The notes beneath the pieces were generated by a model that worked only from the letters and a program-made list of their open reading frames with translations, did no database searches and was not told the origin of the DNA. Source: Amaricoccus solimangrovi (GTDB lineage: Bacteria; Pseudomonadota; Alphaproteobacteria; Rhodobacterales; Rhodobacteraceae). From it: DNA of 64,000 nucleotides. The translations under genes and the position numbers were made by a program. Positions 3,513 through 16,470 of this stretch are shown piece after piece (position 1 is the stretch's first letter; the number at the start of each line of letters is the position of its first letter). Location of the stretch: NCBI RefSeq assembly GCF_006385685.1, contig NZ_VFRP01000007.1, forward strand, positions 124,001-188,000, given 5' to 3'.

Positions 3513-5930
3513 ATGCCCGAAGAGATCCGAAGCATCATCTGGTTCGAGAACCTGTCGCGCGGCGACGTGGCCCTCGTGGGCGGCAAGAACGCCTCGCTCG
3601 GCGAACTGGTGCGCGCGCTGTCGTCCGAAGGCATCCGCGTGCCGCCGGGCTTCGCCACGACCGCCGACGCGTTCCGCGACTATCTCGCCGCCAATCGCCT
3701 GAACGAGACGATCGCGGCCACCCTCGCGCGGCTCGACGCCGGCAAGATCGCGCTGCGCGAGGCCGGGGCGGCGATCCGCGCGGCGATCATGGCGGGCGAC
3801 TGGCCCGAGCGGACCGCCGCCGCCATCGCCGCCGCCTATCGCGAACTCGCGGACCGGATCGGCGTCGCGGATCCCGCCGTCGCCGTCCGCTCCAGCGCCA
3901 CGGCGGAGGACCTGCCGGACGCGAGCTTCGCCGGGCAGCAGGAGACGCTCCTCAACGTCCGGGGCGAGCGGGCGCTGCTCAACGCCTGCCGGCGCTGCTA
4001 CGCCTCGCTCTTCACCGACCGCGCGATCACCTATCGCCGGCTGAAGGGGTTCGACCATTCCCAGGTCGCGCTCTCGGTCGGCGTGCAGCGGATGGCGCGT
4101 TCCGATCTCGGCGGCGCGGGGGTGATGTTCTCGATCGACACCGAGACCGGCTTCGACAAGGCGGTGCTGATCAACGCCGCCTGGGGGCTCGGCGAGAACG
4201 TCGTGCAGGGCGCGGTCAACCCGGACGAATACGAGGTCTTCAAGCCGCTGCTCTCCGATCCCGCCACGCGCCCGATCCTCGAGAAGCGCCTCGGCGCCAA
4301 GGAGCGCAAGATGATCTACGCCGGGGCCGACGGGGGGACGCGCAACGTGCCGACCTCGAAGGCCGAGCAGGCGGATTTCGTGCTCTCCGACGACGAGATC
4401 CTCGACCTCGCCCGCCAGGCGGTCGCGATCGAGCGCCACTACGGCCAGCCGATGGACATGGAATGGGCCAAGGACGGCGAGACGGGCGAGGTCTTCATCG
4501 TCCAGGCGCGGCCGGAGACGGTCGAGTCCCGCGCCGCCGCCGGGGCGTTCAAGTCCTACCGGATCCGCTCGGCGGGCCGGAAGCTCCTGACCGGGCTCAG
4601 CGTCGGGGAGGCGGTGGTGGCGGGCCGCGTCTGCCTGCTCGAGAGCGCGCGCGACATCGAGCGGTTCGTCGACGGCTCGGTGCTCGTCACCTCGACCACC
4701 GATCCCGACTGGGTGCCGGTGATGAAACGGGCCGCGGCGATCGTGACCGATCACGGCGGGCGCACCAGCCACGCCGCGATCGTCAGCCGCGAGCTCGGCC
4801 TTCCCGCCGTCGTCGGCACCGGCTCGGCCACGCGCCTCCTGCATGACGAGCAGGAGGTGACCGTCTCCTGCGCCGAGGGCGAGGAGGGCTTCGTCTACGA
4901 GGGCACGGCGGATTTCGAGGTCGAGGACATGGACCTCGGCGCCGTGCCCGAGACGCGCACCCGCGTCATGCTGAACCTCGCCAATCCGGCGGCTGCCTTC
5001 CGCTGGTGGCGGCTGCCCGCCGATGGCGTCGGCCTCGCGCGGATGGAATTCGTCGTCTCGAACGCGGTCCGCGCGCACCCCATGGCGCTCGCGCGCTTCG
5101 ACGCGTTGCGCGACGACGAGGCCCGGGCCGAGATCGAGGCGCTCACCCGGGGCTACGCCGACCGGCGCGACTATTTCGTCGAGACCCTCGCGCGCGGCCT
5201 CTCGCGGATCGCCGCCGTCTGCCATCCGCGGCCGGTCATCATCCGGATGAGCGATTTCAAGACCAACGAATACGCCGAGCTGCTCGGCGGCCGCCAGTTC
5301 GAGCCGCGCGAGGAGAACCCGATGATCGGCTTCCGCGGCGCGTCGCGCTACTATTCCGATGCCTATCGCGACGGTTTCGCGCTCGAATGCCGGGCGATCC
5401 GGCGGCTGCGCGAGGAGATGGGCTTCGCCAATGTGATCGTGATGATCCCGTTCTGCCGCTCGCCCGCCGAGGCCGACCGGGTGCTGGCGGTGATGGCCGA
5501 GAACGGGCTCGAGCGCGGCCGCGCGGGGCTCGAGGTCTATGTGATGTGCGAGATCCCGTCGAACGTGATCCTGGCCGAGGAATTCGCGAAGCGCTTCGAC
5601 GGGTTCTCGATCGGCTCGAACGACCTGACGCAGCTCACGCTCGGCGTCGACCGCGACTCGGGCCAGCTCGCGGCGCTCTTCGACGAGCGCGACCCGGCGG
5701 TGCTCTGGATGATCCGGAGCGTGATCGCGCGGGCGCACGCCGCCGGGAGCAAGGTCGGCTTCTGCGGCCAGGCCCCGAGCAACGATCCGGCCTTCGCCCG
5801 GCTGCTCGTGGAGGCGGGGATCGACTCGATCTCGGTCACGCCCGACAGCTTCCTCGCCGTGAAGCGCCATGTCGCCGAGGCCGAGGCGGCCGTTCCGGCG
5901 GCGCGGGTGCCCGAGACGCACGAGGCGTGA
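3513..5930 (+). CDS. ppsA: Phosphoenolpyruvate synthase
   Basis: 805-aa pyruvate, water dikinase: pyruvate + ATP + H2O to PEP + AMP + Pi, the gluconeogenic entry from pyruvate. The length fits the family. Order: N-terminal ATP-grasp nucleotide-binding domain (VALVGGKNASLGELVRAL; AVRSSATAEDLPDASFAGQQ), swivelling phosphohistidine domain with VTDHGGRTSHAAIVSREL (His420 by count), and C-terminal PEP/pyruvate TIM barrel with SNDLTQLTLGVDRD and GFCGQAPSN (catalytic Cys about 751). The ATG at 3513 follows GAGGAGGATCC, a strong ribosome site. It is monocistronic, with a hairpin just after the stop. Confidence 0.97.
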   Translation: MPEEIRSIIWFENLSRGDVALVGGKNASLGELVRALSSEGIRVPPGFATTADAFRDYLAANRLNETIAATLARLDAGKIALREAGAAIRAAIMAGDWPERTAAAIAAAYRELADRIGVADPAVAVRSSATAEDLPDASFAGQQETLLNVRGERALLNACRRCYASLFTDRAITYRRLKGFDHSQVALSVGVQRMARSDLGGAGVMFSIDTETGFDKAVLINAAWGLGENVVQGAVNPDEYEVFKPLLSDPATRPILEKRLGAKERKMIYAGADGGTRNVPTSKAEQADFVLSDDEILDLARQAVAIERHYGQPMDMEWAKDGETGEVFIVQARPETVESRAAAGAFKSYRIRSAGRKLLTGLSVGEAVVAGRVCLLESARDIERFVDGSVLVTSTTDPDWVPVMKRAAAIVTDHGGRTSHAAIVSRELGLPAVVGTGSATRLLHDEQEVTVSCAEGEEGFVYEGTADFEVEDMDLGAVPETRTRVMLNLANPAAAFRWWRLPADGVGLARMEFVVSNAVRAHPMALARFDALRDDEARAEIEALTRGYADRRDYFVETLARGLSRIAAVCHPRPVIIRMSDFKTNEYAELLGGRQFEPREENPMIGFRGASRYYSDAYRDGFALECRAIRRLREEMGFANVIVMIPFCRSPAEADRVLAVMAENGLERGRAGLEVYVMCEIPSNVILAEEFAKRFDGFSIGSNDLTQLTLGVDRDSGQLAALFDERDPAVLWMIRSVIARAHAAGSKVGFCGQAPSNDPAFARLLVEAGIDSISVTPDSFLAVKRHVAEAEAAVPAARVPETHEA

Positions 5931-5935
5931 GGCGG

Positions 5936-5955
5936 CCGGCCCCGGCGGGGGCCGG
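5936..5955. terminator. GC hairpin between convergent genes
   Basis: Perfect 8-bp inverted repeat (CCGGCCCC / GGGGCCGG) around a 4-nt loop, 6 bp after the ppsA stop and 9 bp before the stop of the converging TerB-N gene. There is no clear T-tract on either strand, so it may be a weak bidirectional terminator. Confidence 0.45.
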
Positions 5956-5963
5956 ATCGCCGG

Positions 5964-7490
5964 TCAGCCTCCGGCGCGGGCCTTGCGCGAGGCCTCGACC
6001 CGGCCGAGGAGTTCCTGCCAGTCGGGACCGGCGGCGCCGGGCCGCCGCCCCACATCGCGCGACCCGGCCTCGCGCGGCCCGGCCTCGCGCGACCCGACTT
6101 CGCGCGGCGGGCCGGCCCAGGGCGTCGCGGCGTTGCGGGGCACCGGCTCGGCCGTCGTCACGCCGGTGGAGAACGGGGCCGGAAGCGCCTCCGCGGGCTC
6201 GCCGGGCGGGGTCAGCCGGACGAGCGTGCTCGGCCCCGGCGGCCGGACCGCGGCGCGGGGATCGGGCGTCAGCGCGACGCCGAGGCGTTCCAGCGCCTCC
6301 GCGGCCTCGGAGAAGCGCGCCGGATCCGGCCGCCCGGCCGGCGCGCCGCCGAGCCGGAACAGGATGTCGCCGAGCAGCGCGTGCCCGCCCGCCGCCATCC
6401 GCGCGCGGGTCCAGGCGAGGAAGGTCTCCGCCTCGGGCGAGGGGTGGAAGGGGCGCAGGTCCGCCGGCAGGAAGGCGTGGGCCATCGCGGAGTCGCGCGC
6501 GCCGGGATTGGCCTCGAGAAACGCGTCGAACCGGTCGAGCGCCGCGGTCGCCGCCTCCACGAGCTCGTCCGCGATCGCGAGCGGTTCGCTGAGCGCCCCG
6601 ATGTCGGGGAGCGGCTCGCCGTAGGTGGAGAGGTCGAGCGGGCGCTCGAACGCGCCCGTGGCGGCGCGGTAGACCGGCGCGAGTTCCGCCCAGCGCAGCC
6701 TGACCCGGTAGCCCTCCGGAAACCGCCGCGCGAAGCGCAGCGCGAAGAGCGTGCCGAATTCCGCCGGATGGCGGAGGGCCGGCGGCCGGAGCGCGCCCCG
6801 CCCGGCGCAGGACCACCAGCCGAAGAGCCATTCATGCGTCAGGGTCATCCCCTGCATGATCATCGCGCCGACCGGCACCCGGAGCGCCAGCGGCAGGCCC
6901 CAGGGCCGCGCCCCGGCGGGGGGCGCGGCGAGGTCGGCGCGGCAGAGGATCACCCGGGCCGCGTCGATGAACCGCTCCAGCGCGTCGCGCAGCGCCGGCG
7001 CGGCGATGTCGAGCCCCCGGAGCCGGATCGCCTCGTCGAGGATCGCCTCCCGCTCGGCCGGCGCGGTCTCCGAGTCGAGGAAGAACCGCCGCTCGAGTCC
7101 CTGGAAATAGAGAAAGACGCATCCTTCCGCCGGATCCGCGCGCCCCGAGGCGAGCCAGCGCAGATAGGCGCCGCGCGCCCCGGGCGGGAGTTCCGCGTAG
7201 ACCGCGGCCCCGGGCGGGACCTCGCCGCCCTCCTCCGTCTCCGCGGGCAGGGCGGGATCGATCCAGGCGCCGCCGGCGGCGGTCTCCGCGCCGGGCGCGC
7301 CGAGGTAGATCATTCCCCCCACCGGCAGCCCCGCGACGAGCGCGGGCCGCTCCGCCGGAATCCAGCCCGCGAAACCCGGCGCGGGCGCCGCGGGCGCGGA
7401 CTCCTTCCCGGCCCCGGCGCCGCGCGTCAGGAAGTCATGCGCCCCCGCGAGTCCCTCGCGCAGCGCGGATGCGATCGAACGGGCGAACAT
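5964..7490 (-). CDS. TerB-N domain protein (stand-alone)
   Basis: 508-aa protein. Residues about 40-180 fit the TerB N-terminal domain (PF13208): LVAGLPVGGMIYLGAPG, IDPALPAE, YAELPPGARGAYLRWLASGR and FLYFQGLERRFFLD. In known proteins this domain is usually followed by TerB and TerB-C domains and is linked to tellurite or conflict-type stress systems. Here residues about 180-380 (PWGLPLALRVPVGAMIMQGM; ALRHPAEFGTLFALRFARRF) continue the family's central part, but no TerB or TerB-C domain is visible. The C-terminus is a Pro/Ala/Arg-rich linker with short repeats (REVG, REAG) ending in PDWQELLGRVEASRKA. No ATPase partner sits next to it. Role unknown. Confidence 0.7.
   Translation of the reverse strand: MFARSIASALREGLAGAHDFLTRGAGAGKESAPAAPAPGFAGWIPAERPALVAGLPVGGMIYLGAPGAETAAGGAWIDPALPAETEEGGEVPPGAAVYAELPPGARGAYLRWLASGRADPAEGCVFLYFQGLERRFFLDSETAPAEREAILDEAIRLRGLDIAAPALRDALERFIDAARVILCRADLAAPPAGARPWGLPLALRVPVGAMIMQGMTLTHEWLFGWWSCAGRGALRPPALRHPAEFGTLFALRFARRFPEGYRVRLRWAELAPVYRAATGAFERPLDLSTYGEPLPDIGALSEPLAIADELVEAATAALDRFDAFLEANPGARDSAMAHAFLPADLRPFHPSPEAETFLAWTRARMAAGGHALLGDILFRLGGAPAGRPDPARFSEAAEALERLGVALTPDPRAAVRPPGPSTLVRLTPPGEPAEALPAPFSTGVTTAEPVPRNAATPWAGPPREVGSREAGPREAGSRDVGRRPGAAGPDWQELLGRVEASRKARAGG
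6058..6102. repeat. Three 15-bp tandem units in the TerB-N gene
   Basis: Three consecutive 15-bp near-identical units of the form CGCG(A/G)CCCG(G/A)C(C/T)TCG, encoding the five-residue REVGS/REAGP/REAGS repeats in the linker of the TerB-N protein. They keep the reading frame. Confidence 0.75.
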
Positions 7491-7658: not shown

Positions 7659-9449
7659 TCAGCGCGCGCCGGCGCGCCGGCGCCGCCGGGGCGTCACCTC
7701 GGCCTCCTCGGCCGGGGTGGTGTCGAGCGGCGTCGCGCAGAGCCGGACGACGCGGTCGTAGAAGCCCGTCGGCTCGCGCCGCTGCGAGATGTTGACGACG
7801 GCGGTCTCGCGCAGTTCGTCGCCGAGGATCCCGAGCAGCAGTTCCCGGTTGGTCTCGTCGAGCGTGTCGAGCCCCTCGTCGGAGACGAGAAACCGCGGCC
7901 GCGCGAGCAGGAGCCGCGCGTAGCAGAGCCGCTCCTGCTCGCCGAGGCCGAGTTCGCGGTCCCAGCGCGCCGCGAGGTCGAGGCTGCCCGCGAGATTGTC
8001 GAGCCCCACCCGGCGCAGCCCCGCGCGCAGCTTCGCATCCTCGACCGTCTCGCCGTCGAAGCGCAGCGCCTGCCGGAGCGGGCCGCCGCGCAGGAAGGGG
8101 CGCTGCGTCAGATAGGCGACCTCGTGATCGGGCGGCACGACGATCCGCCCCGACCCCGCGCTCCAGAGCCCGGCGATGGCGAGGAAGAAGCTCGTGCGGC
8201 CCGAGCCGGGCTTGCCGAGGATCAGCACCCGCTCGCCCGGCCCCACCTCCAGGCTCGGCGGCTCCAGCGCGGCGCAGCCGTGGCGCGTGCGCACCCGCAC
8301 GTCCTCGAGCAGGAAACGGTCGCGCGGCCCCTCGCGCCGCTCGATCAGCCCGGCGGAGGCCTCGACCCGGTCGAGATCGAGCAGCGCCTGGCGGAAGTTC
8401 ATCACCCTGAGGAGCGTCGCGCGCCAGTCCGCGATCGCCCCGGTGTTGTCGACGAACCAGCGCAGCGACTGCTGCACCTGGTTGAAGGCGCCAACGACCA
8501 TCATCAGCTCGCCGAAGCTGAGCCGCCCGGCGAAATAGCCGGGCGCGGCGACGATGATCGGAAAGACCAGCGCGACCCAGCCATAGCCCGCCGTCACCCA
8601 GGTCAGCCGCGCCCGGGCAAAGGCGATGCGCCGCAGCACGGCCGCGAGCGTCCCGAGGCTGGTTCCGAGCCCGCGCAGGCTGTCGGCCTCGTCGTTGCTG
8701 AGCGCGATGCCCTCGGCGTGCTCGGAGCCCTGCACCAGCGCGAAGCGGAACTCCGCCTCGCGCGCGTAGCGGTCCTGCCCGAGCCGCACCAGCGGCCGGC
8801 CGACGCGCCAGGAGACGAGCGAGCCCGAGAGCGCGTAGATGAGCGCGGCCCAGACCATGTAGCCCGGGATCGCGATGTCGTGGCCGCCGAGCGGGATCAC
8901 GACGCCCTCCGACAGGATCCAGAGCACGCCGATGAAGCTCAGCAGCAGGATCGAGGACTGGATGAGCCCGATGCTGAGATCCGTGGTGAGCTCGGTCAGG
9001 TTCTGCGTGTCGGCCTGGATGCGCTGGTCGGGATTGGCACCGATCTCGCCCGCGCGGCTGATGCGCGCGGCGCGCTTGCGCGTCATCCAGTTGCCCATCA
9101 GGTCGATGGTCGCGAGCTCGCGCAGCCGCACCCGGATCAGCTGGTTGCAGCCGGTCTGCGCCACGTTCAGCACCAGAAGCCCCGCCGCGATCATGAAGAA
9201 CACGCCGAGCTGGCGCAGGAATTCGTTGAAGTCGCGCCGCTCGATCGCGTCGTAGAAGGGCTGGTTCCAGGCGTTGAGCCGGACCTGCATCACCGCGGTC
9301 AGGATGATGATGGCGACGATGGCCGCCGTCAGCACGTAGAGCCGCGACCGGCCCGGTGTGCGATGGACCGCGCGCAGGAGCACGCTGACCTGATGGGTCA
9401 GTCGGTCATCGAATGGCGCGATCGGGGCCTTCGCCATGCTCTCCACCAT
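7659..9449 (-). CDS. SbmA/BacA-like ABC transporter with degenerate ATPase site
   Basis: 596-aa half-transporter: an SbmA/BacA-type membrane domain (ABC_membrane_2; NAWNQPFYDAIERRDFNEFL is typical) with about six TM segments over residues 35-320, fused to a nucleotide-binding domain (about 380-575), as in YddA or Rv1819c. Relatives move peptides, cobalamin or long-chain lipids. The ATPase is abnormal: the P-loop reads GKPGSGRTS with Arg for the catalytic Lys, and the H-loop His is Gln (NISQRRE). Walker B (FLVSDE) and a signature-like LGLGEQERL remain. Start: ATG at 9449; an ATG at 9437 with GGAG four bases ahead is an alternative. It lies 108 bp downstream of the GH3 gene on the same strand. 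Confidence 0.85.
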   Translation of the reverse strand: MVESMAKAPIAPFDDRLTHQVSVLLRAVHRTPGRSRLYVLTAAIVAIIILTAVMQVRLNAWNQPFYDAIERRDFNEFLRQLGVFFMIAAGLLVLNVAQTGCNQLIRVRLRELATIDLMGNWMTRKRAARISRAGEIGANPDQRIQADTQNLTELTTDLSIGLIQSSILLLSFIGVLWILSEGVVIPLGGHDIAIPGYMVWAALIYALSGSLVSWRVGRPLVRLGQDRYAREAEFRFALVQGSEHAEGIALSNDEADSLRGLGTSLGTLAAVLRRIAFARARLTWVTAGYGWVALVFPIIVAAPGYFAGRLSFGELMMVVGAFNQVQQSLRWFVDNTGAIADWRATLLRVMNFRQALLDLDRVEASAGLIERREGPRDRFLLEDVRVRTRHGCAALEPPSLEVGPGERVLILGKPGSGRTSFFLAIAGLWSAGSGRIVVPPDHEVAYLTQRPFLRGGPLRQALRFDGETVEDAKLRAGLRRVGLDNLAGSLDLAARWDRELGLGEQERLCYARLLLARPRFLVSDEGLDTLDETNRELLLGILGDELRETAVVNISQRREPTGFYDRVVRLCATPLDTTPAEEAEVTPRRRRRAGAR

Positions 9450-9557: not shown

Positions 9558-11825
9558 TCAGTCGGTGAGCAGGAAGGGCAGCGCGCAGGGCGCGTCCCCG
9601 AACCGCGCGATCGCCTCCAGCGCCTGCCCCTCGTGCTGGACGAGGAAGAGCCGGTCGGGATTGGCCGCCGGGTCGCGGTCGGGCCAGACGCGCGCCCCCG
9701 CCTCCGGATCGCGCCCCGGCCGGGCGAGCATCTCCGGCGTCACCGCGAAGGAGAGCACCGCCGAGGCGCCGGGATCGAGCCGGACCTGCCGGTGCCCGAG
9801 CCGGTCGAGAAGCCGCGGCACGCGCTCCTCGCAGACCATGTCCTGGTAGTAGAGATGCACCGTCTCGGTCCCGGCCCGCTCCCCGGTATTGGTCACGCGC
9901 ACCCGCGCGACGAGCGGCGCGGCGGCCGAGGCGGAGAGCCGGTCCCCGTCGAGCGCCCAGTCCGAGAGCGCGAAGCTCGTGTGCGAATACCCCTCGCCGA
10001 AGTGATAGGCCGAGGGCCAGCGCGCGCCGAGCCCGAGGTAATAGGCGCACCAGTGGTCGCGTTGCCGCCGCGAGGCGGAGCCTTCCACGACCGGGACCGG
10101 CGGCCGCCCGATCCGCTCCGCGCGCCTGTCGAGGCCCGAGGTGATCCCGTCGCCGATCGGCAGCCCGTGCGAGAGCCGCCCGGTCGGCTCGCGCAGCCCC
10201 GCGAGGATGTCCGCGATCGCGTCGCCCGCGAAGGTGCCCAGATGCGCGGTCCAGAAGAGCGCGTCCGCCGCCGCCTCGATCTCCCGCGGGATGTGGAGCG
10301 CGCGGCCGGCGGTGACGAAGACGATGAGCTTCGCCTCCGGATTGGCCTTTCGCACGCGCTCGACCAGCCGGCGCTGGAGGCAGGGCAGCCGCGGATCGGC
10401 GAGCGCGGCGGATTCGCCGCTCCATTCGTGCGGCTCGCCGAGGAAGAGCACCACGTGGCTCGCCCCGCGCGCCAGCGCCGCCGCCGCCGCGATCTCGCGC
10501 TCCTCTTCCGCCGCCGGCCGGCCGGGATCGCGGTCGTAGTCGCAGCCGCGCGCGTAGGCCGCGCCGGGCCAGTGCTTGCGAAGCCCGGCGAGCGGCGTGA
10601 CGACGCGTTCGAGATGGTGGTTCGCATGGCTCGAATAGGCGCCGAGCCAGTCCTCCGGATCCTGATCCGCGAGCGGCCCGATCACGCTGAGCCGCGCCGA
10701 GGAGGGGATGGGCAGCGTCGCGGGGTCCGGCCGCGCGGGCCGCAGCATCACGACCGAGCCGGCGGCGAGGTCGCGATAGGCCCGCGTCGATCCGGCGAGC
10801 AGCGCCGTCTCCCGCTCCGGCCCGGTGCCGAGCCAGGGATCGTCGAGCAGTCCGATCCGGTCCTTCAGCGTCAGAAGCTCCGCCGCGCGGACGCGCAACT
10901 CCTCCTCGCTCAGCCGCCCCTCCTCCACCAGATCCGGCAGGTGGGTGAGATAGAGAAGCGAGCAGAGGTCGATATGCACGCCCCCCTCGCGGAAGGCGCG
11001 GAAGGCCGCCTCCCTCGGGCTCGCCGCGTAGCCGAAGCCGCCGTGGATCTCGTAGATCGCGTCGTAATCCGCCTCGATGATCGCGCCCGGCCCGGCCTTC
11101 GTCTTCGCGAGGTCGCGCAGGAACGGATCGGCATGGGCCGGCACGCCGTCGAGCGCGACGAAGCTCATCATCACCCCGTGCGCCCCCGCCTCGAACCCGC
11201 CGGCGTAGCGCGGCAGCACGGTTTCGAGGAATTCCGCGCGGCTGATCGGGAGCGCGGTGTAATCGGGCCCGGCGGTGTACTGGTAGGGTCCGAGATGCTT
11301 CAGCACCACGGCGACGCGCCCCTCCGCGACCAGCCCCTCGGTGCTCGCCCGCGTCACCTCGCTCATGAACCGCGGGCAGGAGATCACGCCCCCCTCCTGC
11401 GTGCGCCCCTGATGCTGGGCGAAGGCGTAGTCGCAGGTGAGCCGGATCAGCCGGGCGCCGGCCTTGTTCGCGTCGATCGCCGCCTGTTCATGCGCGCGCC
11501 GCACCAGATCCATGTCGAAACAGTAGAGCGGAAACGGCCCGACGAGGTAGAAGCCCCGCCGGCCGTCGTCCTTGATCAGGAGCGGCGGATGGCCGTTCGC
11601 GACCGCGATCCCCTGCAGTTCCCGCAACCGGTCCCCGACGAGGCCGGAGCCCCCGACCTCGCCCCGCGCGACCGCGCGCGCGATATCCTCCCCGGCGAGC
11701 TGCCGGTAGCGCCCGGGATCGATCGAGTTGAGCTGCCCGGCGAGCTGGCGGAGCGTCATCGCACCGGCGAGCGTCCAGGCGCGCTCCGTCACATGCGCCG
11801 GCCTGGGAGAGGTCCGTGGTGTCAT
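9558..11825 (-). CDS. Glycoside hydrolase family 3 enzyme, possible beta-1,2-glucosidase
   Basis: 755-aa GH3 protein, cytoplasmic since no signal peptide is seen. Domain order is as in BglX-type glucosidases: TIM barrel (about 20-290) with VVLKHLGPYQYTAGPDYTAL and IIEADYDAIYEIHGG, where Asp253 is the candidate nucleophile; the alpha/beta sandwich (about 350-590, VIGPLADQDPEDWLGAYSSH, VVLFLGEPHEWSGE); and a C-terminal fibronectin-like domain (VRVTNTGERAGTETVHLYYQ). It is divergent: the usual VIHG substrate strand is replaced by LLIKDDGRRGFY. It is divergently transcribed from the GH144-like gene and close to GH94, so sophorose or beta-1,2-oligoglucan is the inferred substrate, by analogy with Listeria lin1840 next to lin1839. 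Confidence 0.85.
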   Translation of the reverse strand: MTPRTSPRPAHVTERAWTLAGAMTLRQLAGQLNSIDPGRYRQLAGEDIARAVARGEVGGSGLVGDRLRELQGIAVANGHPPLLIKDDGRRGFYLVGPFPLYCFDMDLVRRAHEQAAIDANKAGARLIRLTCDYAFAQHQGRTQEGGVISCPRFMSEVTRASTEGLVAEGRVAVVLKHLGPYQYTAGPDYTALPISRAEFLETVLPRYAGGFEAGAHGVMMSFVALDGVPAHADPFLRDLAKTKAGPGAIIEADYDAIYEIHGGFGYAASPREAAFRAFREGGVHIDLCSLLYLTHLPDLVEEGRLSEEELRVRAAELLTLKDRIGLLDDPWLGTGPERETALLAGSTRAYRDLAAGSVVMLRPARPDPATLPIPSSARLSVIGPLADQDPEDWLGAYSSHANHHLERVVTPLAGLRKHWPGAAYARGCDYDRDPGRPAAEEEREIAAAAALARGASHVVLFLGEPHEWSGESAALADPRLPCLQRRLVERVRKANPEAKLIVFVTAGRALHIPREIEAAADALFWTAHLGTFAGDAIADILAGLREPTGRLSHGLPIGDGITSGLDRRAERIGRPPVPVVEGSASRRQRDHWCAYYLGLGARWPSAYHFGEGYSHTSFALSDWALDGDRLSASAAAPLVARVRVTNTGERAGTETVHLYYQDMVCEERVPRLLDRLGHRQVRLDPGASAVLSFAVTPEMLARPGRDPEAGARVWPDRDPAANPDRLFLVQHEGQALEAIARFGDAPCALPFLLTD

Positions 11826-11945
11826 CGATGCCGCCCGCCGCCTGATCCTTGCGCGACGATACTCCCGAATGGCGAGGCGACAACAGCCTTCCGCCCGGCC
11901 CCGGCCTTTGCGAGAGTGGCCGGGAAACGGCGGAAGGAGCGCGGC
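11826..11945. other. Divergent control region between GH3 and GH144-like genes
   Basis: 120-bp gap between two divergent starts that must hold both promoters. A Shine-Dalgarno AAGGAG lies 7 bp before the plus-strand ATG. A weak sigma70-like pair (TTGCGC, then GATACT) can be drawn around 11850-11865, but I see no clear palindromic operator and no regulator gene beside it. Confidence 0.35.
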
Positions 11946-13220
11946 ATGAGTGACACCGGGGCCGGAACCCTTTGCCCCGCCGAGGCCGGCGACGCGGCGC
12001 TGCTCGACCTGACGCAGCGCGCGACGCTGCGCTATTTCTGGGACTTCGCCCATCCCGTCTCCGGCCTCGCGCGGGAGCGGAGCAACGTGACGCCGCGCTA
12101 CGGGCTCGAGGCGGTGACGACCGGCGGATCGGGTTTCGGCGTCATGGCGATCATCGTTGGCGTCTCGCGCGGCTGGATCGACCGGCGGGAGGCGGTCGCC
12201 CGGCTCTGGACCATGGCGAAGTTCCTCGAGAAGGCCGACAGCTATCACGGCGTCTGGCCGCATTTCCTGAACGGCGAGACCGGGCGGACCATCCCGTTCA
12301 GCCGCAAGGACGACGGCGCCGATCTGGTGGAGACCTCCTACCTGATCATGGGCCTTCTCTGCGCGCGGCAGTTCTTCGACGGCGCGGAGGAAGGCGAGAC
12401 GCGGCTGCGCGCGCTCATCGACTGGCTCTGGCGCGAGGTCGAATGGGACTGGCACACGCGAGGCGGGCGGAACGTGCTCTACTGGCACTGGAGCCCGAAC
12501 AACGGCTGGAGCATGAACCACGAGATCCGGGGCTGGAACGAATGCCTCGTCACCTATCTGCTCGCCGCCTCCGCCCCGCGCTACCCGGTCAGCGCCGAGG
12601 TCTATCACCGCGGCTGGGCCGATGGCCGCGCCTTCCTGAACGGCCGGAGCTACGACGGCGTGACGCTGCCGCTCGGCCCCGACCGGGGCGGGCCGCTCTT
12701 TCTCGCGCATTACTCCTTCCTCGGCCTCGACCCGCGCGGGCTCCGCGACCGCTACGCCGACTACTGGGAACAGAACACCGCGCATACCCGGATCAACCGC
12801 GCGCATTGCATCGCCAATCCGGGCGGCTTCCTCGGCTACGGGCCGGACTGCTGGGGCCTGACCGCCTGCGACGGTCCCCGCGGCTATGACGGCTTCTCGC
12901 CCGCGAACGACCGGGGCGTGATCGCCCCCGCCGCCGCGCTCGGCTCCTTCCCCTACGCGCCCGAGGCCGCGATGCGCGCGCTCCGCCATTTCCACGGCGC
13001 GCTGGGGCCGCGCATCTGGACCGACCTCGGCTTCGTCGACGCGTTCAGCGAGACCGAGGACTGGTACGCCGCCTCGCATCTCGCGATCGACCAGGGGCCG
13101 ATCGTGGTGATGATCGAGAACGCGCGCACGGGCCTCCTCTGGAATCTGTTCATGAGCTGCCCCGAGATCCGCGACGGCCTCCGCCGCCTCGATTTCGAGA
13201 GCCCGCGACTCACGGGCTGA
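11946..13220 (+). CDS. Glycoamylase-domain protein, GH144-like (predicted beta-1,2-glucanase)
   Basis: 424-aa protein filled by a glycoamylase-like domain (PF10091). This (alpha/alpha)6 fold is found in GH144 endo-beta-1,2-glucanases and in the middle part of cyclic beta-1,2-glucan synthases. Seen: LTQRATLRYFWDFAHPVSGLARERSN, TGGSGFGVMAIIVGVSRGW, GWNECLVTYLLAASAP, LFLAHYSFLGLDPRG, YGPDCWGLTACDGPRGY (each quoted in part). No signal peptide, so intracellular, unlike the secreted Chitinophaga enzyme. The ATG at 11946 follows AAGGAG. Its 3' end overlaps that of the convergent GH94 gene by 11 bp. Predicted to cut imported beta-1,2-glucan into oligosaccharides; this activity is inferred from family and neighbours. 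Confidence 0.83.
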   Translation: MSDTGAGTLCPAEAGDAALLDLTQRATLRYFWDFAHPVSGLARERSNVTPRYGLEAVTTGGSGFGVMAIIVGVSRGWIDRREAVARLWTMAKFLEKADSYHGVWPHFLNGETGRTIPFSRKDDGADLVETSYLIMGLLCARQFFDGAEEGETRLRALIDWLWREVEWDWHTRGGRNVLYWHWSPNNGWSMNHEIRGWNECLVTYLLAASAPRYPVSAEVYHRGWADGRAFLNGRSYDGVTLPLGPDRGGPLFLAHYSFLGLDPRGLRDRYADYWEQNTAHTRINRAHCIANPGGFLGYGPDCWGLTACDGPRGYDGFSPANDRGVIAPAAALGSFPYAPEAAMRALRHFHGALGPRIWTDLGFVDAFSETEDWYAASHLAIDQGPIVVMIENARTGLLWNLFMSCPEIRDGLRRLDFESPRLTG

Positions 13221-16200
13221 GATCCCACCGCTCCGCCCGCCCGTCGATCACCCGGTCGAGCGTGACCGGCCCGAGCCCCGGCGGCGTAACCGGCGCCACG
13301 ACCCGCTCCCCGAACCACCGCCGCAGCCCGAGCGCGTGGCAGAGCAGGAGCCGCGTGTAGAGCCCCGGCCCGCTCGAATAGATCCGCCAGCCGCCTTCGA
13401 CCGCCACGCGTCCCGCGCGCAGGAGCGCCCAGTCCGCCTCGGCGGCGTAGCGATCGGGGAAGGCCGCGTCCGAACTGCTGAAGAAGGCGTTGCGCTGGCG
13501 CGGCGCGGCATTCGCCGCCAGGTCGGCCACCGAGACCGGATTGGCGAGGCCGAGCGCCCGCCAGAGCGCCTCCGCCTCGCCCAGCGCCGCCAGCGCCTCG
13601 CCGTGGCGCAGATGGGCGTGGACATACATGAGCCCGATCTCGCGCCCGAAGAAGGCCGCCGATTCCGCGCGCTGGAACACCCGCTCCGGCCCGCCGCGAT
13701 AGGCCACCGGCCGGTCCATCAGCCGCGCCCCGTCGGGGAAGAGCAGATGCTCCCGGATCAGGTCCAGATGCCGCCGCGCCTCCGCCGGCGTGAAGATCCC
13801 GCCGATGATCCCCCGCGTCATCGGCAGCAGCGAATAGGAGAGGCCGGTCCGCCGGTCCGCCGGATGGAGCAGAAGCTCCGGCGCCCCGCCCTCCGGGCCG
13901 AACAGCGCGTAGCCCGCGACGACCCCGCCCCGGATCAGGTACCGCGCGAAATCCGCCCGGATCGCCCCGGCGAGGTCGCGCAGCGCCGCCGCCTCCGCCG
14001 CCTCCCCCGCCCGCGCGAGGATCCCGGCGTAGCGGCCGAACTGCTGGTAGAGGAGCGCGACCGTCCAGCCGCTCACCATCCAGTCGCGCATCGCCGGATC
14101 GACCGGGCGCAGCGAGTCGTTCCAGTCACCCTCGCCGTAGCGGATCAGATGCGTGCCCGGGATGAAGCGCGCGCGCACCGTGGCGATCAGCTTCGCGACA
14201 TGCGCCGCGACCGGATCGCGCCGCGCGGTCACCGCCCCGTCCTCCCCGCGCCAGGCGAGCGGCTCCCGGAGAAAGGCCGTGTCGCCCGTCGCCTCGATGT
14301 AGTCGCAGAGCGCCTTCAGCGGCCAGATGATCACGTCGCCATGGCTGTGGGCGTCGCGGATCGCCTCGTAGGGCGGGAGCATGAACCATTGCGGCCAGTC
14401 GCCGCTCTCCGCGCCCTGCTCGGCGAAGACGATCCGCAGGATCTCCCGCGCCACCGCGTCGTGTTCGTGGGCGAGCAGGAATTCGACCGGCCCCTGGCAG
14501 ACGTCCCGCGTCCCCCAGGCCGCCCCGCCCGATTGTTCGAGCCCGTGCGGCACCGTCAGATGCACCATCGCGTCCCGCGCCATCCAGGGCAGGACCGCGT
14601 TCGCCGCCGCCACGCCCGCGCCCGTACCGCCGAGCCGCGTCTCCCGCGTCACATGGCGCCAGTAGGCCGCCGCCGCGAGGCTCTCGGCCTCCGGCACGCC
14701 GCGCGCGTGGCGCGCCGCGAGCCGCTCCGCCTCCGCCGGATCGCGGAGCGCGCCCACCACGGCGAAGCGGAACGCGCGCGTCGGCCGCGTCCGGAGCGCG
14801 ACGAAGCCGCCGCTCCCCGGCCCCCCCTCCGGATCGAGCAGCGCGTCGTCCCCGATCGCCTCCACCGCCTCCGGCGTGGCGGCGACGAGGTGATAGACCG
14901 CATCCGGATAACGCTGGCCCCAGAGCGAGGCCGGATCGGGGCGGAAGGCGATCCGGCCCGCGCCCGCGTCGACCTCCACCCGGCCGGCGCTCGCGAACTC
15001 CCGCTCGCCGAGCGCGAGCCCGGCATGGACGAGAAACCGCCGCGGCGCGCCCTCGACCGAGATCCGCCATGTCATCGCGGGATCCGCGCCCGAGGCGACG
15101 AGCCGCACGGTGAGCAGGTCGGCGCCGAGCCGGTAGATCCAGCGGCAGTCGCTCAACCCCATCTCGAAGACCGAGGGCTCGCCGAGCAGCGCCCAGCCCG
15201 CCTCCGTCTCGACGAGGATCCGGAGCCCGCCCGACCGCGTGATGCCGTAGGGGTCGCGCGCGGCCGAGAAGAGCCGGTGGAACGAGGTATTGCCGAGCGA
15301 GAGCAGCGACCCGAAGACGCCATGCATCCAGACGGTGGCGCACATCGTCGTCTCGTCGATCAGCATCCCCTGCCCGGTCCTGAGGATCGCGCCGTGACGC
15401 CGGAGAAGCATCCTCTCCTTCCCGCGCGTCACCACGTGGCGGTTGAGCGCCCCCTCCGGCGCGAAGAACGAGAGGAGCCGCCCGTCCGCCCGCTCCTCCA
15501 GCACCCGATCCGGATAGCGCGCCGCGAGATCCGCCGCGTCGAAGGGCGCGCCCGCGAGGAGGGGCGCCTCGCGGGCCAGATTCCTCCGGGCCGGCGCCAG
15601 CGCGACCGCGCGCGGCGCGAAAGCCTCCCGCGCCTCGAAGGCGCGCGCGAGCCGCGCCAGATCCGCCTCGCCCGAGGCCCCGGGATGATCGGGGAGGTAG
15701 AGCCCGAAGAAGGTCCAGCCCGCCTCCGCGCCGGGGGCGAGCACGAGGCGCCGCGAGCGGATCGCCGGGCAGGCGACCTCGTGCTGCAGCCGTTCGCCCG
15801 GAAGCTCCAGCGCGGGATCGATCCGGCCCGTGTCGCGAAAGGCCGGGCCGAAGAGCTGCGCCGCGTCGGTCGCGAAACCGGCCGCCCCGTCGAGGCAGCC
15901 CTGCGCGAGCCAAGGATGCGCGCCGCCCTGCGCGAGGTTCTGACGGCTCATCACCACCGGCCCCGCGACCGGGTGCCGGGCGATGTGATGGTCGATGTAT
16001 TGCGAGGCGAAGGCCGCGTTGCCGGTCACGAAGCCGGGATCGCCGAGGCCGAGATCCTGGACCAGCGTCGCGTCGCAGGCGACCGGCTCCGCGGCGCCGT
16101 TCGCGACCTCCACCCGCCAGAGCCAGAGGTTCTCCTCCGGATGGAGCCAGAGCGTGACCCGGTGCCGCGCCGCCCCGGCCGCGCCCTCCCAGACGAAGCG

Positions 16201-16470
16201 ATCCTCCGCGGCCCCGACCGCGACCCGCGCGCCCGGCCCGACCGCCTCCGCCACCCGCCCGTCGAGCCGGAGGAAGAGCCGCCCGATGCCGCCGTCGAGC
16301 GGCGAGCCGGGGATCTGGCTGATGAGCGTGCGCCCGTTCGCGCGGCGATGCGCGATCGCATGGAGACAGCCGTTCGGGAGCAGGCTGATCGAGAGCCCCG
16401 CCGCGCCCGTGAGACGGCGCGGGCCGAGATCCTCTTCCCGGGGCGTCTCGAACCGCGCGCGCGGCGTCAT
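13210..16470 (-). CDS. GH94 phosphorylase, predicted 1,2-beta-oligoglucan phosphorylase
   Basis: 1086-aa GH94 protein without the GT84 synthase half of NdvB-type enzymes. Its size and layout match Listeria innocua 1,2-beta-oligoglucan phosphorylase (lin1839): an N-terminal beta-sandwich part (about 1-560), then the (alpha/alpha)6 catalytic part with WGTRDVCQGPVEFLLAHEHD, IIWPLKALCDYIEATGDTAF and YGEGDWNDSLRPVDP, where Asp782 or Asp785 is the general acid, and a C-terminal GPGLYTRLLLCHALGLRR segment. Predicted reaction: (beta-1,2-Glc)n + Pi to (n-1) + glucose 1-phosphate, in the cytoplasm. It lies 19 bp after the HerA-like gene on the same strand. Other GH94 activities cannot be excluded. Confidence 0.88.
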   Translation of the reverse strand: MTPRARFETPREEDLGPRRLTGAAGLSISLLPNGCLHAIAHRRANGRTLISQIPGSPLDGGIGRLFLRLDGRVAEAVGPGARVAVGAAEDRFVWEGAAGAARHRVTLWLHPEENLWLWRVEVANGAAEPVACDATLVQDLGLGDPGFVTGNAAFASQYIDHHIARHPVAGPVVMSRQNLAQGGAHPWLAQGCLDGAAGFATDAAQLFGPAFRDTGRIDPALELPGERLQHEVACPAIRSRRLVLAPGAEAGWTFFGLYLPDHPGASGEADLARLARAFEAREAFAPRAVALAPARRNLAREAPLLAGAPFDAADLAARYPDRVLEERADGRLLSFFAPEGALNRHVVTRGKERMLLRRHGAILRTGQGMLIDETTMCATVWMHGVFGSLLSLGNTSFHRLFSAARDPYGITRSGGLRILVETEAGWALLGEPSVFEMGLSDCRWIYRLGADLLTVRLVASGADPAMTWRISVEGAPRRFLVHAGLALGEREFASAGRVEVDAGAGRIAFRPDPASLWGQRYPDAVYHLVAATPEAVEAIGDDALLDPEGGPGSGGFVALRTRPTRAFRFAVVGALRDPAEAERLAARHARGVPEAESLAAAAYWRHVTRETRLGGTGAGVAAANAVLPWMARDAMVHLTVPHGLEQSGGAAWGTRDVCQGPVEFLLAHEHDAVAREILRIVFAEQGAESGDWPQWFMLPPYEAIRDAHSHGDVIIWPLKALCDYIEATGDTAFLREPLAWRGEDGAVTARRDPVAAHVAKLIATVRARFIPGTHLIRYGEGDWNDSLRPVDPAMRDWMVSGWTVALLYQQFGRYAGILARAGEAAEAAALRDLAGAIRADFARYLIRGGVVAGYALFGPEGGAPELLLHPADRRTGLSYSLLPMTRGIIGGIFTPAEARRHLDLIREHLLFPDGARLMDRPVAYRGGPERVFQRAESAAFFGREIGLMYVHAHLRHGEALAALGEAEALWRALGLANPVSVADLAANAAPRQRNAFFSSSDAAFPDRYAAEADWALLRAGRVAVEGGWRIYSSGPGLYTRLLLCHALGLRRWFGERVVAPVTPPGLGPVTLDRVIDGRAERWDLSP

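Follow-up and report, generated by a model that had tools for sequence, protein, structure and literature searches.

How would a bacterium that keeps enzymes for beta-1,2-glucan in its cytoplasm bring the polymer to them? The question is raised by a 64,000-nucleotide stretch of the Amaricoccus solimangrovi genome, hereafter the window, in which genes for GH3, GH144 and GH94 enzymes lie side by side. The reading favoured here, to which we assign a probability of about 65%, is that we see here, in its Amaricoccus form, a cassette of the Alphaproteobacteria that salvages beta-1,2-glucan in the cytoplasm by way of an SbmA/Rv1819c-like importer. The substrate is likely to be osmoregulated periplasmic glucan, either the cell's own or that of its neighbours, and in many carriers is probably an alpha-1,6-cyclised beta-1,2-glucan. 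The enzymes are of known kinds, and it is the cassette with an SbmA-like transporter that is a new variant. A search of the open-access literature found no published pathway for the turnover of osmoregulated periplasmic glucans; the cassette offers a testable one, and it suggests what one clade of YddA-type ABC transporters may carry, a type whose function is described as unknown in one account (PMC13316013).

Enzymes of the window

Pfam and PDB matches confirmed the three neighbouring genes that the initial annotation had named. The GH3 beta-glucosidase homologue (9558-11825, minus strand, 755 aa; PF00933 and PF01915) is divergent from the GH144 endo-beta-1,2-glucanase homologue (11946-13220, plus strand, 424 aa; PF10091), and the 120 bp between them (11826-11945) form, by position, a probable promoter region. 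GH144 is in turn convergent, with an 11 bp overlap, with the SOGP-type GH94, a 1,2-beta-oligoglucan phosphorylase homologue (13210-16470, minus strand, 1086 aa; PF21958 and PF21250). A hydrophobicity scan found no signal peptide in any of the three, in agreement with the initial annotation, and supports a cytoplasmic location.

The GH144 protein scored 249.5 bits against PF10091, and its best PDB matches were 4gl3 (E 1.2e-174) and the Chitinophaga enzyme CpSGL, 5gzh (E 3e-154, residues 16-422 of 424). Its residues D122, D126, E129 and E199 align with D135, D139, E142 and E211 of CpSGL, of which E211 is given as the acid and E142 as the base candidate (PMC12102758); the catalytic residues of CpSGL are thus kept. 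The protein has the sequence features of an endo-beta-1,2-glucanase, and hydrolysis is predicted. For GH94, matches to SOGP_N (PF21958, E 2.4e-61) and SOGP_2nd (PF21250), a domain feature described in PMC5309861, were accompanied by scores just below the cut-offs of the general GH94 models in Pfam. The sole PDB match at E <= 0.01 was LpSOGP (5h3z, E 8.9e-173), with whose substrate and catalytic residues R655, D656, W783, D785, E944, Y949 and H951 align. This supports an enzyme of SOGP type, of predicted activity, and not a cellobiose or chitobiose phosphorylase, a point on which the initial annotation had staked its reading. Homology is more distant in GH3, which scored 36 bits against PF00933 and whose best PDB matches, including JMB19063, BT_3567 and Lin1840, had E values of 1e-50 to 1e-57. 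Its D253 (the nucleophile Asp) and K176-H177 (the subsite -1 pair) align with those of BT_3567 and JMB19063, D253 falling on a position occupied by N in the variant chains 5xxn and 3u4a; sophorose specificity is not predictable from matches at such a distance.

Two known systems resemble this set. In Listeria innocua, lin1839-lin1840 likewise pairs an SOGP-type GH94 with an adjoining GH3 beta-glucosidase for sophoro-oligosaccharide phosphorolysis (PMC3960220, PMC4757417), whereas in the window an intracellular GH144 and an SbmA-like transporter come in addition, the GH3 is distant from Lin1840 (E about 1e-51), and the six genes scanned with Pfam include no solute-binding protein. The other is the cyclic glucan synthase of the initial annotation, which had reported no synthase domain in the trio. 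Across the 4.86-Mb assembly PF10091 matched GH144 alone, and with no second such gene no cyclic glucan synthase was seen in it. In that enzyme, too, a PF10091-type and a GH94 domain occur together in the cytoplasm, whereas the window has them in separate genes. A synthase fragment was also considered as an identity for the window genes and was ruled out by the separate 424-aa and 1086-aa proteins and the single PF10091 gene.

The cassette in related genomes

Of 52 alphaproteobacterial genomes that carry GH144, 45 have a PF05992 gene no more than 10 kb away from it, against 0.48 expected from the 113 such genes present, although the chance calculation overstates independence because the genomes are related. 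By genome labels the 45 belong to 22 genera and nine families. The set of 52 leaves aside G010, G669 (52% identity, from the same phylum and a different class) and matches of 48% identity or less. The usual cassette consists of GH3, the SbmA-like ABC gene, GH144, GH15 and sometimes SOGP, and it rules out a stand-alone trio: the window is a local form of this wider cassette, which most often has a GH15 or GH13 that the window lacks. These two families occupy one slot, with GH15 in 35, GH13 in seven, both in none and neither in 17 of 59 loci, a set that omits L138 (in G669), the low-identity loci L142-L147 and the plasmid loci L286-L289, the last read by annotation only. A cassette in which GH15 and GH13 alternate fits periplasmic glucans that are alpha-1,6-cyclised beta-1,2-glucans, such as Cereibacter sphaeroides makes (PMC11842490). 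Of the slot's occupants, the GH13 of L199 had as its top PDB matches an alpha-glucosyltransferase and alpha-glucosidases, followed by sucrose isomerases and oligo-1,6-glucosidases, and fell below the cut-offs of the 25 NCBIfam models listed; two GH15s gave only weak NCBIfam matches to 'oligosaccharide amylase', so that the alpha-1,6 role is putative. Since neither family occurs within 9 kb of GH144 in the window, L005 and L008, opening of an alpha-1,6 ring is unexplained in these three.

Many relatives have the ABC gene in the slot between GH3 and GH144. Some pairs resemble an operon: by mechanical frame calls, 9 bp separate ABC from GH144 in L135, and in L136 the two overlap by 11 bp. In the window the arrangement differs, the ABC gene being found downstream of GH3, on its strand, across a gap of 108 bp. 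No transporter of either type was found within 9 kb of GH144 in six of the 59 loci, among them lone GH144 genes on rhizobial plasmids, and one further such lone gene lies outside the 59. Near the GH144 of L142-L147 there was no strong SbmA-type match, and the one ABC match, in L146, was short and scored 77 bits. Whole cassettes are carried on plasmids in Rhodobacter, Paracoccus, Methylocystis and a Paracoccaceae strain.

SOGP was found in 27 of the 52 carriers and in none of 28 non-carriers, that is, genomes without a close GH144 match (at a cut-off of 1e-90 in part of the searches, and with G010 included); in a set of 61 genomes it occurred in three, the window's own among them. OpgG was present in all 52 carriers and also in 23 of the 28 non-carriers, and is so common that its presence in every carrier is weak evidence. 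It adjoins GH144 in two of the 59 loci and on one plasmid, which, at one to four OpgG genes per genome, is by a rough estimate little above chance.

Within Amaricoccus, GH144 occurs in four of 11 genomes; a fifth PF10091 match, in G010, is weak and lies in a 2833-aa frame. ABC proteins of the window subtype were found in G000, G004 and G006, the Amaricoccus genomes with SOGP, and not in G005, which has a GH144-GH3-ABC1 set. In five others (G003 and G007-G010) PF05992 matches were absent, were BacA itself or were another paralogue; this comparison covers G000 and G003-G010. In G004 the counterpart lies on another contig, of which the 11 kb read contained none of the cassette genes. Transfer from the Bacteroidota was considered as a possible origin of the gene: the window GH144 shares 55-69% identity with close alphaproteobacterial copies outside the genus, and 62-67% with the Bacteroidota copies among the best 80 matches listed.

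The initial annotation had considered the cytoplasm an unusual place for an endo-enzyme, and this holds against Bacteroidota-type GH144, 74 of 76 of which have a signal-like N-terminus. Among the alphaproteobacterial loci examined it does not, and the cytoplasm is the rule: none of 60 GH144 proteins (one of them not alphaproteobacterial) was flagged, and the signal-peptide scan of the loci flagged no secreted enzyme. The scan was blind to the signal of L138, which is visible by eye and lies more than 60 residues ahead of the homology region.

The adjoining transporter

Just beyond the stretch covered by the initial annotation, a gene for an SbmA/BacA-like type IV ABC protein (7659-9449, minus strand) adjoins GH3, and the earlier statement that no sugar importer is adjacent is not supported. 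The protein belongs to the SbmA_BacA/YddA-like family, in which the membrane domain (PF05992, 6.4e-29; PF06472, 3.6e-28) is fused to an ABC domain (PF00005, 3.8e-11), and its best PDB match was Rv1819c (6tqe, E 5.5e-48). In a midpoint-rooted FastTree phylogeny, taken without inspection of support values, the GH144-linked proteins, including that of the window, form one clade apart from other SbmA-type ABC proteins of the same and sister genomes. The window protein is probably the importer, in a direction, on a substrate and with an energy source that we infer. Rv1819c and SbmA/BacA import hydrophilic compounds (PMC10960864, PMC13316013), and since mycobacterial BacA transports in both directions (PMC10960864), family does not fix direction.

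The clade shares its family with mycobacterial Rv1819c/BacA and with YddA/BclA, and differs from them in its linkage to glucan enzymes, in five typical tryptophans (W214, W284, W291, W331 and W342, each in 51-53 of 53 members) and in ATPase motifs that appear to be degenerating. Canonical Walker A and B residues were found in 27 of 53 linked transporters as against 23 of 23 other paralogues. The window protein keeps the Walker B D-E, has R for K in Walker A and reads LGLGEQE at the signature, and so lacks the full set of an ATP-hydrolysing ABC protein (Walker A K, Walker B D-E and an LSGGQ-like signature). With the Walker A change in the window and altered motifs in about half of the clade, the protein must either be driven by something other than ATP or be losing its function. 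Nor is it a secondary transporter of the SbmA/BacA (SLiPT) kind, which has a homologous membrane domain (PF05992), no ATPase domain and a full glutamate ladder. The clade keeps the ATPase domain and has the proton ladder of SbmA in part, no more so than other SbmA-type ABC proteins: most members have acidic residues where SbmA has E193, E276 and E378 (the window protein has A at the first), and the equivalents of E203, E269 and E287 are absent.

SbmA-type secondary transporters have been proposed to descend from ABC transporters (PMC13316013), and an ATPase domain in decay would support that route from sequence. We raise, as a speculation that is less likely than not, that the GH144-linked transporters are a living intermediate: a YddA-like line specialised for beta-1,2-glucan import, with its membrane domain under strong selection and its ATPase losing function, driven wholly or partly by something other than ATP, be it protons or the pull of glucan breakdown in the cytoplasm. 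An AlphaFold model of the window protein, built from four sequences, had a mean pLDDT of 54.8, a quality that allowed neither a fold search nor placement of the tryptophans.

Competing explanations and the proposed route

The same importer might instead serve nutrient scavenging, the cell feeding on beta-1,2-glucan that rhizobia or other proteobacteria have made and not on its own, in line with the view that Listeria innocua and the Bacteroidota turn such enzymes to glucan from outside. The patchy, partly plasmid-borne distribution of SOGP and GH144 is typical of accessory catabolism, and we hold this to be a minority possibility. It sits poorly with a GH144 that has no signal peptide, with the large size of whole glucans relative to porins, and with the absence of any outer-membrane receptor, porin or secreted glucanase among the neighbour families present in at least three of 55 loci. 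By eye, a single TonB-receptor-like gene was seen near GH144 in L139, beside haem/iron-type genes.

Two further explanations concern the transporter itself. It might be a peptide or vitamin transporter that lies beside the enzymes by chance, the sugars entering through an unlinked system; the characterised relatives SbmA, BacA, BclA and Rv1819c do carry peptides, cobalamin or drugs (PMC10960864, PMC13316013), the ATPase motifs are degenerate, and the window gene adjoins GH3 without forming an operon with GH144. The 45 linked genomes, the single GH144-linked clade with its own conserved residues, and the agreement of presence and absence in the Amaricoccus genomes scanned make such a coincidence improbable. 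Less probable still is that the protein exports beta-1,2-glucan as NdvA/Cgt do, while the enzymes trim cytoplasmic glucan during synthesis in the manner of domains within cyclic glucan synthase, whose glycoamylase and GH94 domains are both on the cytoplasmic side. OpgG and OpgH adjoin the cassette in L059, an ABC transporter, Cgt, exports cyclic beta-glucan (cited in PMC11842490), and BacA-type proteins can, as noted, work both ways. Against this, the assembly has no second PF10091 gene and hence no cyclic glucan synthase, SOGP and GH3 would destroy the product, and linear osmoregulated glucans are exported with their own synthase. Among relatives of solved structure the closest is Rv1819c, and it imports (PMC10960864).

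Under the favoured reading of cytoplasmic salvage, the SbmA/Rv1819c-like transporter would move glucan or its fragments from the periplasm to the cytoplasm, where in most relatives GH15, or GH13 in its stead, may open the single alpha-1,6 linkage; these two steps, for the second of which the window has neither gene, are suggested by gene linkage and family. GH144 would then cut the beta-1,2 chain to oligosaccharides, and SOGP would phosphorolyse those of at least three units to glucose-1-phosphate, down to sophorose, both as predicted from close homology and conserved active sites. GH3, by its more distant homology, is a candidate for splitting sophorose to glucose. Phosphorylation of that glucose by a glucokinase encoded nearby would be possible in a few relatives: a glucokinase-like gene was present in six of the 59 loci, and the one checked passes the TIGR00749 cut-off.

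Enzymes of the window and their location

The initial annotation placed GH3, GH144 and GH94 enzymes side by side, and this arrangement is borne out by a GH3 gene at 9558-11825 (reverse strand), a GH144 gene at 11946-13220 (forward strand) and a GH94 gene at 13210-16470 (reverse strand). The GH94 protein carries the N-terminal domain specific to 1,2-beta-oligoglucan phosphorylases (SOGPs), and LpSOGP was its only match in a PDB search. In the alignment, residues R655, D656, W783, D785, E944, Y949 and H951 are the equivalents of LpSOGP residues that, in the excerpted text of PMC5309861, bind glucose-1-phosphate or adjoin the phosphate site; the acid named there, D760, corresponds to D785. The active-site residues of CpSGL, the Chitinophaga GH144, are likewise kept, with D135, D139, E142 and E211 (roles as excerpted from PMC12102758) aligning with D122, D126, E129 and E199. 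The GH3 sequence is divergent but retains the K-H pair; its nucleophile, D253, lines up with an Asp that the variant chains 5xxn and 3u4a carry as Asn. Judged by sequence, the GH144 and the SOGP can be assigned with confidence to known enzyme kinds, and so, less confidently, can the GH3. Among the matches listed, the best named GH144 locus is that of Amaricoccus macauensis DSM 101730 (79% GH144 identity). The window genome has two loci of the periplasmic glucan gene OpgG and a single PF10091 gene, hence no cyclic glucan synthase.

A hydrophobicity scan of the stretch (60 residues at most) ahead of each homology region, applied to the loci of the GH144 comparison, found signal-like N-termini in none of 60 GH144, 49 GH3 (a count of matches that holds one gene of locus L137 twice), 35 GH15 and 8 SOGP sequences. 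The 60 include the GH144 of L138, which is not alphaproteobacterial and whose own signal lies further upstream than the scan reaches. The identical scan flagged 74 of 76 GH144 proteins from Bacteroidota-type loci among the matches listed, one of these loci being labelled Williamsia. As none of the 60 was flagged, a cytoplasmic GH144 is the rule in the alphaproteobacterial cassette group. Locus L063, from a MAG labelled Williamsia (an actinobacterium), encodes a GH144 65% identical to that of the window, as close as the Bacteroidota copies, and is perhaps mis-binned or mislabelled.

Layout and distribution of the cassette

The cassette, which joins an SbmA-like transporter with alternating GH15 or GH13 enzymes, counts as a new variant; the enzymes themselves are of known kinds. 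Across 59 GH144 loci, with partners counted within 9 kb, an SbmA-type ABC gene (PF05992 with an ATPase domain) was present at 49, a second ABC type (ABC1) at five, and at least one of the two at 53; GH3 was found at 48, GH15 at 35, SOGP at eight, GH13 at seven, a glucokinase-like gene at six and OpgG at two. The commonest layout is an ABC-GH144-GH15 run with GH3 divergent from it. GH13, where it occurs, adjoins GH144 in the place of GH15 (7/7 loci); the two never occur together, and neither was seen at 17 of the 59 loci, including the window, L005 and L008. No outer-membrane receptor was found among neighbour gene families present in at least 3 of 55 loci. LysR-type regulator genes group loosely across eight loci (L206 at 5738-6745, L209, L210, L211, L213, L214, L216 and L219; single linkage, E 1e-10), and at the stricter level of the locus comparison the L206 copy was matched in just one of 59 loci. 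At L137 (9710-16097, genome G582) the GH3 is broken across two frames and GH144 is matched as two separate pieces, probably through frameshifts or assembly errors.

In one alphaproteobacterial family 30 of 199 genomes carry a close GH144 copy (E <= 1e-90), and in one order 17 of 150 do. The SOGP_N domain is rare, occurring in 3 of 61 genomes in the search of relatives (that of the window and two further Amaricoccus genomes) and in the window genome alone among 385 of a class-wide sample. By annotation, the cassette resides on plasmids in Rhodobacter sp. CZR27, Paracoccus aminovorans, Methylocystis rosea and Paracoccus alcaliphilus; it is also on a plasmid in Paracoccaceae bacterium La 6. There the enzyme genes are followed by an alpha/beta hydrolase and mdoG, and the upstream gene bears no annotation beyond 'hypothetical'. 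Lone GH144 genes are the exceptions, in Sinorhizobium mexicanum, Agrobacterium vitis and Aminobacter; the unannotated locus of Sinorhizobium sp. RAC02 was left out of this survey of named loci. The A. vitis copy, of about 53% identity and without cassette partners, lies on the pTi plasmid (L243, 8001-9251).

Among the open-access papers listed on SbmA/BacA and glucan, periplasmic glucan recycling, GH144 with GH15 and an ABC transporter, the SbmA glutamate ladder, YddA/SbmA/Walker or sophoro-oligosaccharide transporters, none was seen to describe the cassette; the words 'glucan' and 'glycoside' are absent from the main text of PMC12003926.

The transporter linked to GH144

The 52 GH144-carrying alphaproteobacterial genomes hold 113 PF05992 genes. 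In 45 of these genomes such a gene is no more than 10 kb away from GH144, where chance would give 0.48. By their assigned taxonomy labels these 45 span 22 genera and 9 families; kinship among genomes inflates the formal linkage probability but hardly accounts for the pattern. The seven unlinked genomes are G909, G862, G1015, G1021, G131, G004 and G005. G862 has its PF05992 gene 23 kb from GH144, beside SOGP and GH3; in G004 and G005 the ABC gene next to GH144 is of the ABC1 type, and G1015 has a partial ABC1 match. A tree built from 80 ABC sequences places the SbmA-type transporters linked to GH144, including that of the window (7659-9449, reverse strand), in one cluster, apparently distinct from other SbmA-type ABCs. 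The sequences labelled unlinked inside this clade are L281 (from G862) and two of G131, a GH144 carrier with no cassette gene beside either; the second ABC copy of L137 falls outside. The GH144-linked SbmA-like transporter probably imports beta-1,2-glucan. Another Amaricoccus PF05992 paralogue (L274, 8171-10288; L275, 8547-10730) differs at its N-terminus and has none of the cassette genes in its vicinity.

In the PDB ranking for the window transporter, Rv1819c (6tqe) came best, followed by ABCD-family members, with SbmA lower. Five tryptophans (W214, W284, W291, W331 and W342 in window numbering) are each kept in 51-53 of the 53 clade members, and among 22 other paralogues at least 19 have a different residue at each position. 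The spacing of two Trp pairs (7 and 11 residues) would suit one helix face. Aromatic residues often stack on sugars. The full canonical set of Walker A Lys, Walker B Asp and catalytic Glu is retained by 27 of 53 clade sequences versus 23 of 23 other paralogues; the window transporter has Arg for the Walker A Lys and an intact Walker B. Within the clade, pairwise identity averages 0.58 for the membrane domain and 0.44 for the ATPase domain, and in 99% of the 1378 pairs the membrane domain is the more similar of the two. The other paralogues average 0.45 and 0.57, with the membrane domain ahead in 2% of their 253 pairs. Unexpected as it is in a linked and conserved transporter clade, this decay of the ATPase half is real at the level of sequence.

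Proton coupling of the clade transporters is possible. The equivalent of SbmA E193 is Glu in 44 of 53 members, with Ala in the window transporter, that of E276 is Glu in all 53, and that of E378 is Asp or Glu in 48; equivalents of E203, E269 and E287 are absent from the clade (n=53), and a clade-typical acidic residue (50/53) stands three residues ahead of the E203 position. This partial ladder is not clade-specific, since the other paralogues share the E193 (Asp or Glu, 21/23) and E276 (Glu, 23/23) equivalents.

ABC1 replaces or joins the SbmA-like ABC near GH144 at L139 (13153-15078), L240 (4829-6664), L005 (13441-15396) and L008 (2448-4520). The L005 copy matches PF00005 alone in Pfam, its membrane part having no match. 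The ATPase motifs appear intact in three of the four, and the fourth copy runs off the locus read.

Candidate substrates

SOGP and GH144 point to beta-1,2-glucan as the likely substrate, and the GH15/GH13 slot suggests one with an alpha linkage as well. OpgG is present in 52 of 52 GH144 carriers versus 23 of 28 non-carriers, which is compatible, if weakly, with a cell salvaging glucan that it made itself. According to the excerpted text of PMC11842490, Cereibacter (Rhodobacter) sphaeroides, Xanthomonas and Ralstonia produce alpha-1,6-cyclised beta-1,2-glucans, which frequently bear succinyl or acetyl groups. Removal of such groups would fit the SASA-type esterase (PF03629) in Amaricoccus macauensis and the alpha/beta hydrolase found on three Rhodobacterales plasmids, those of Paracoccus aminovorans, Paracoccus alcaliphilus and Paracoccaceae bacterium La 6.
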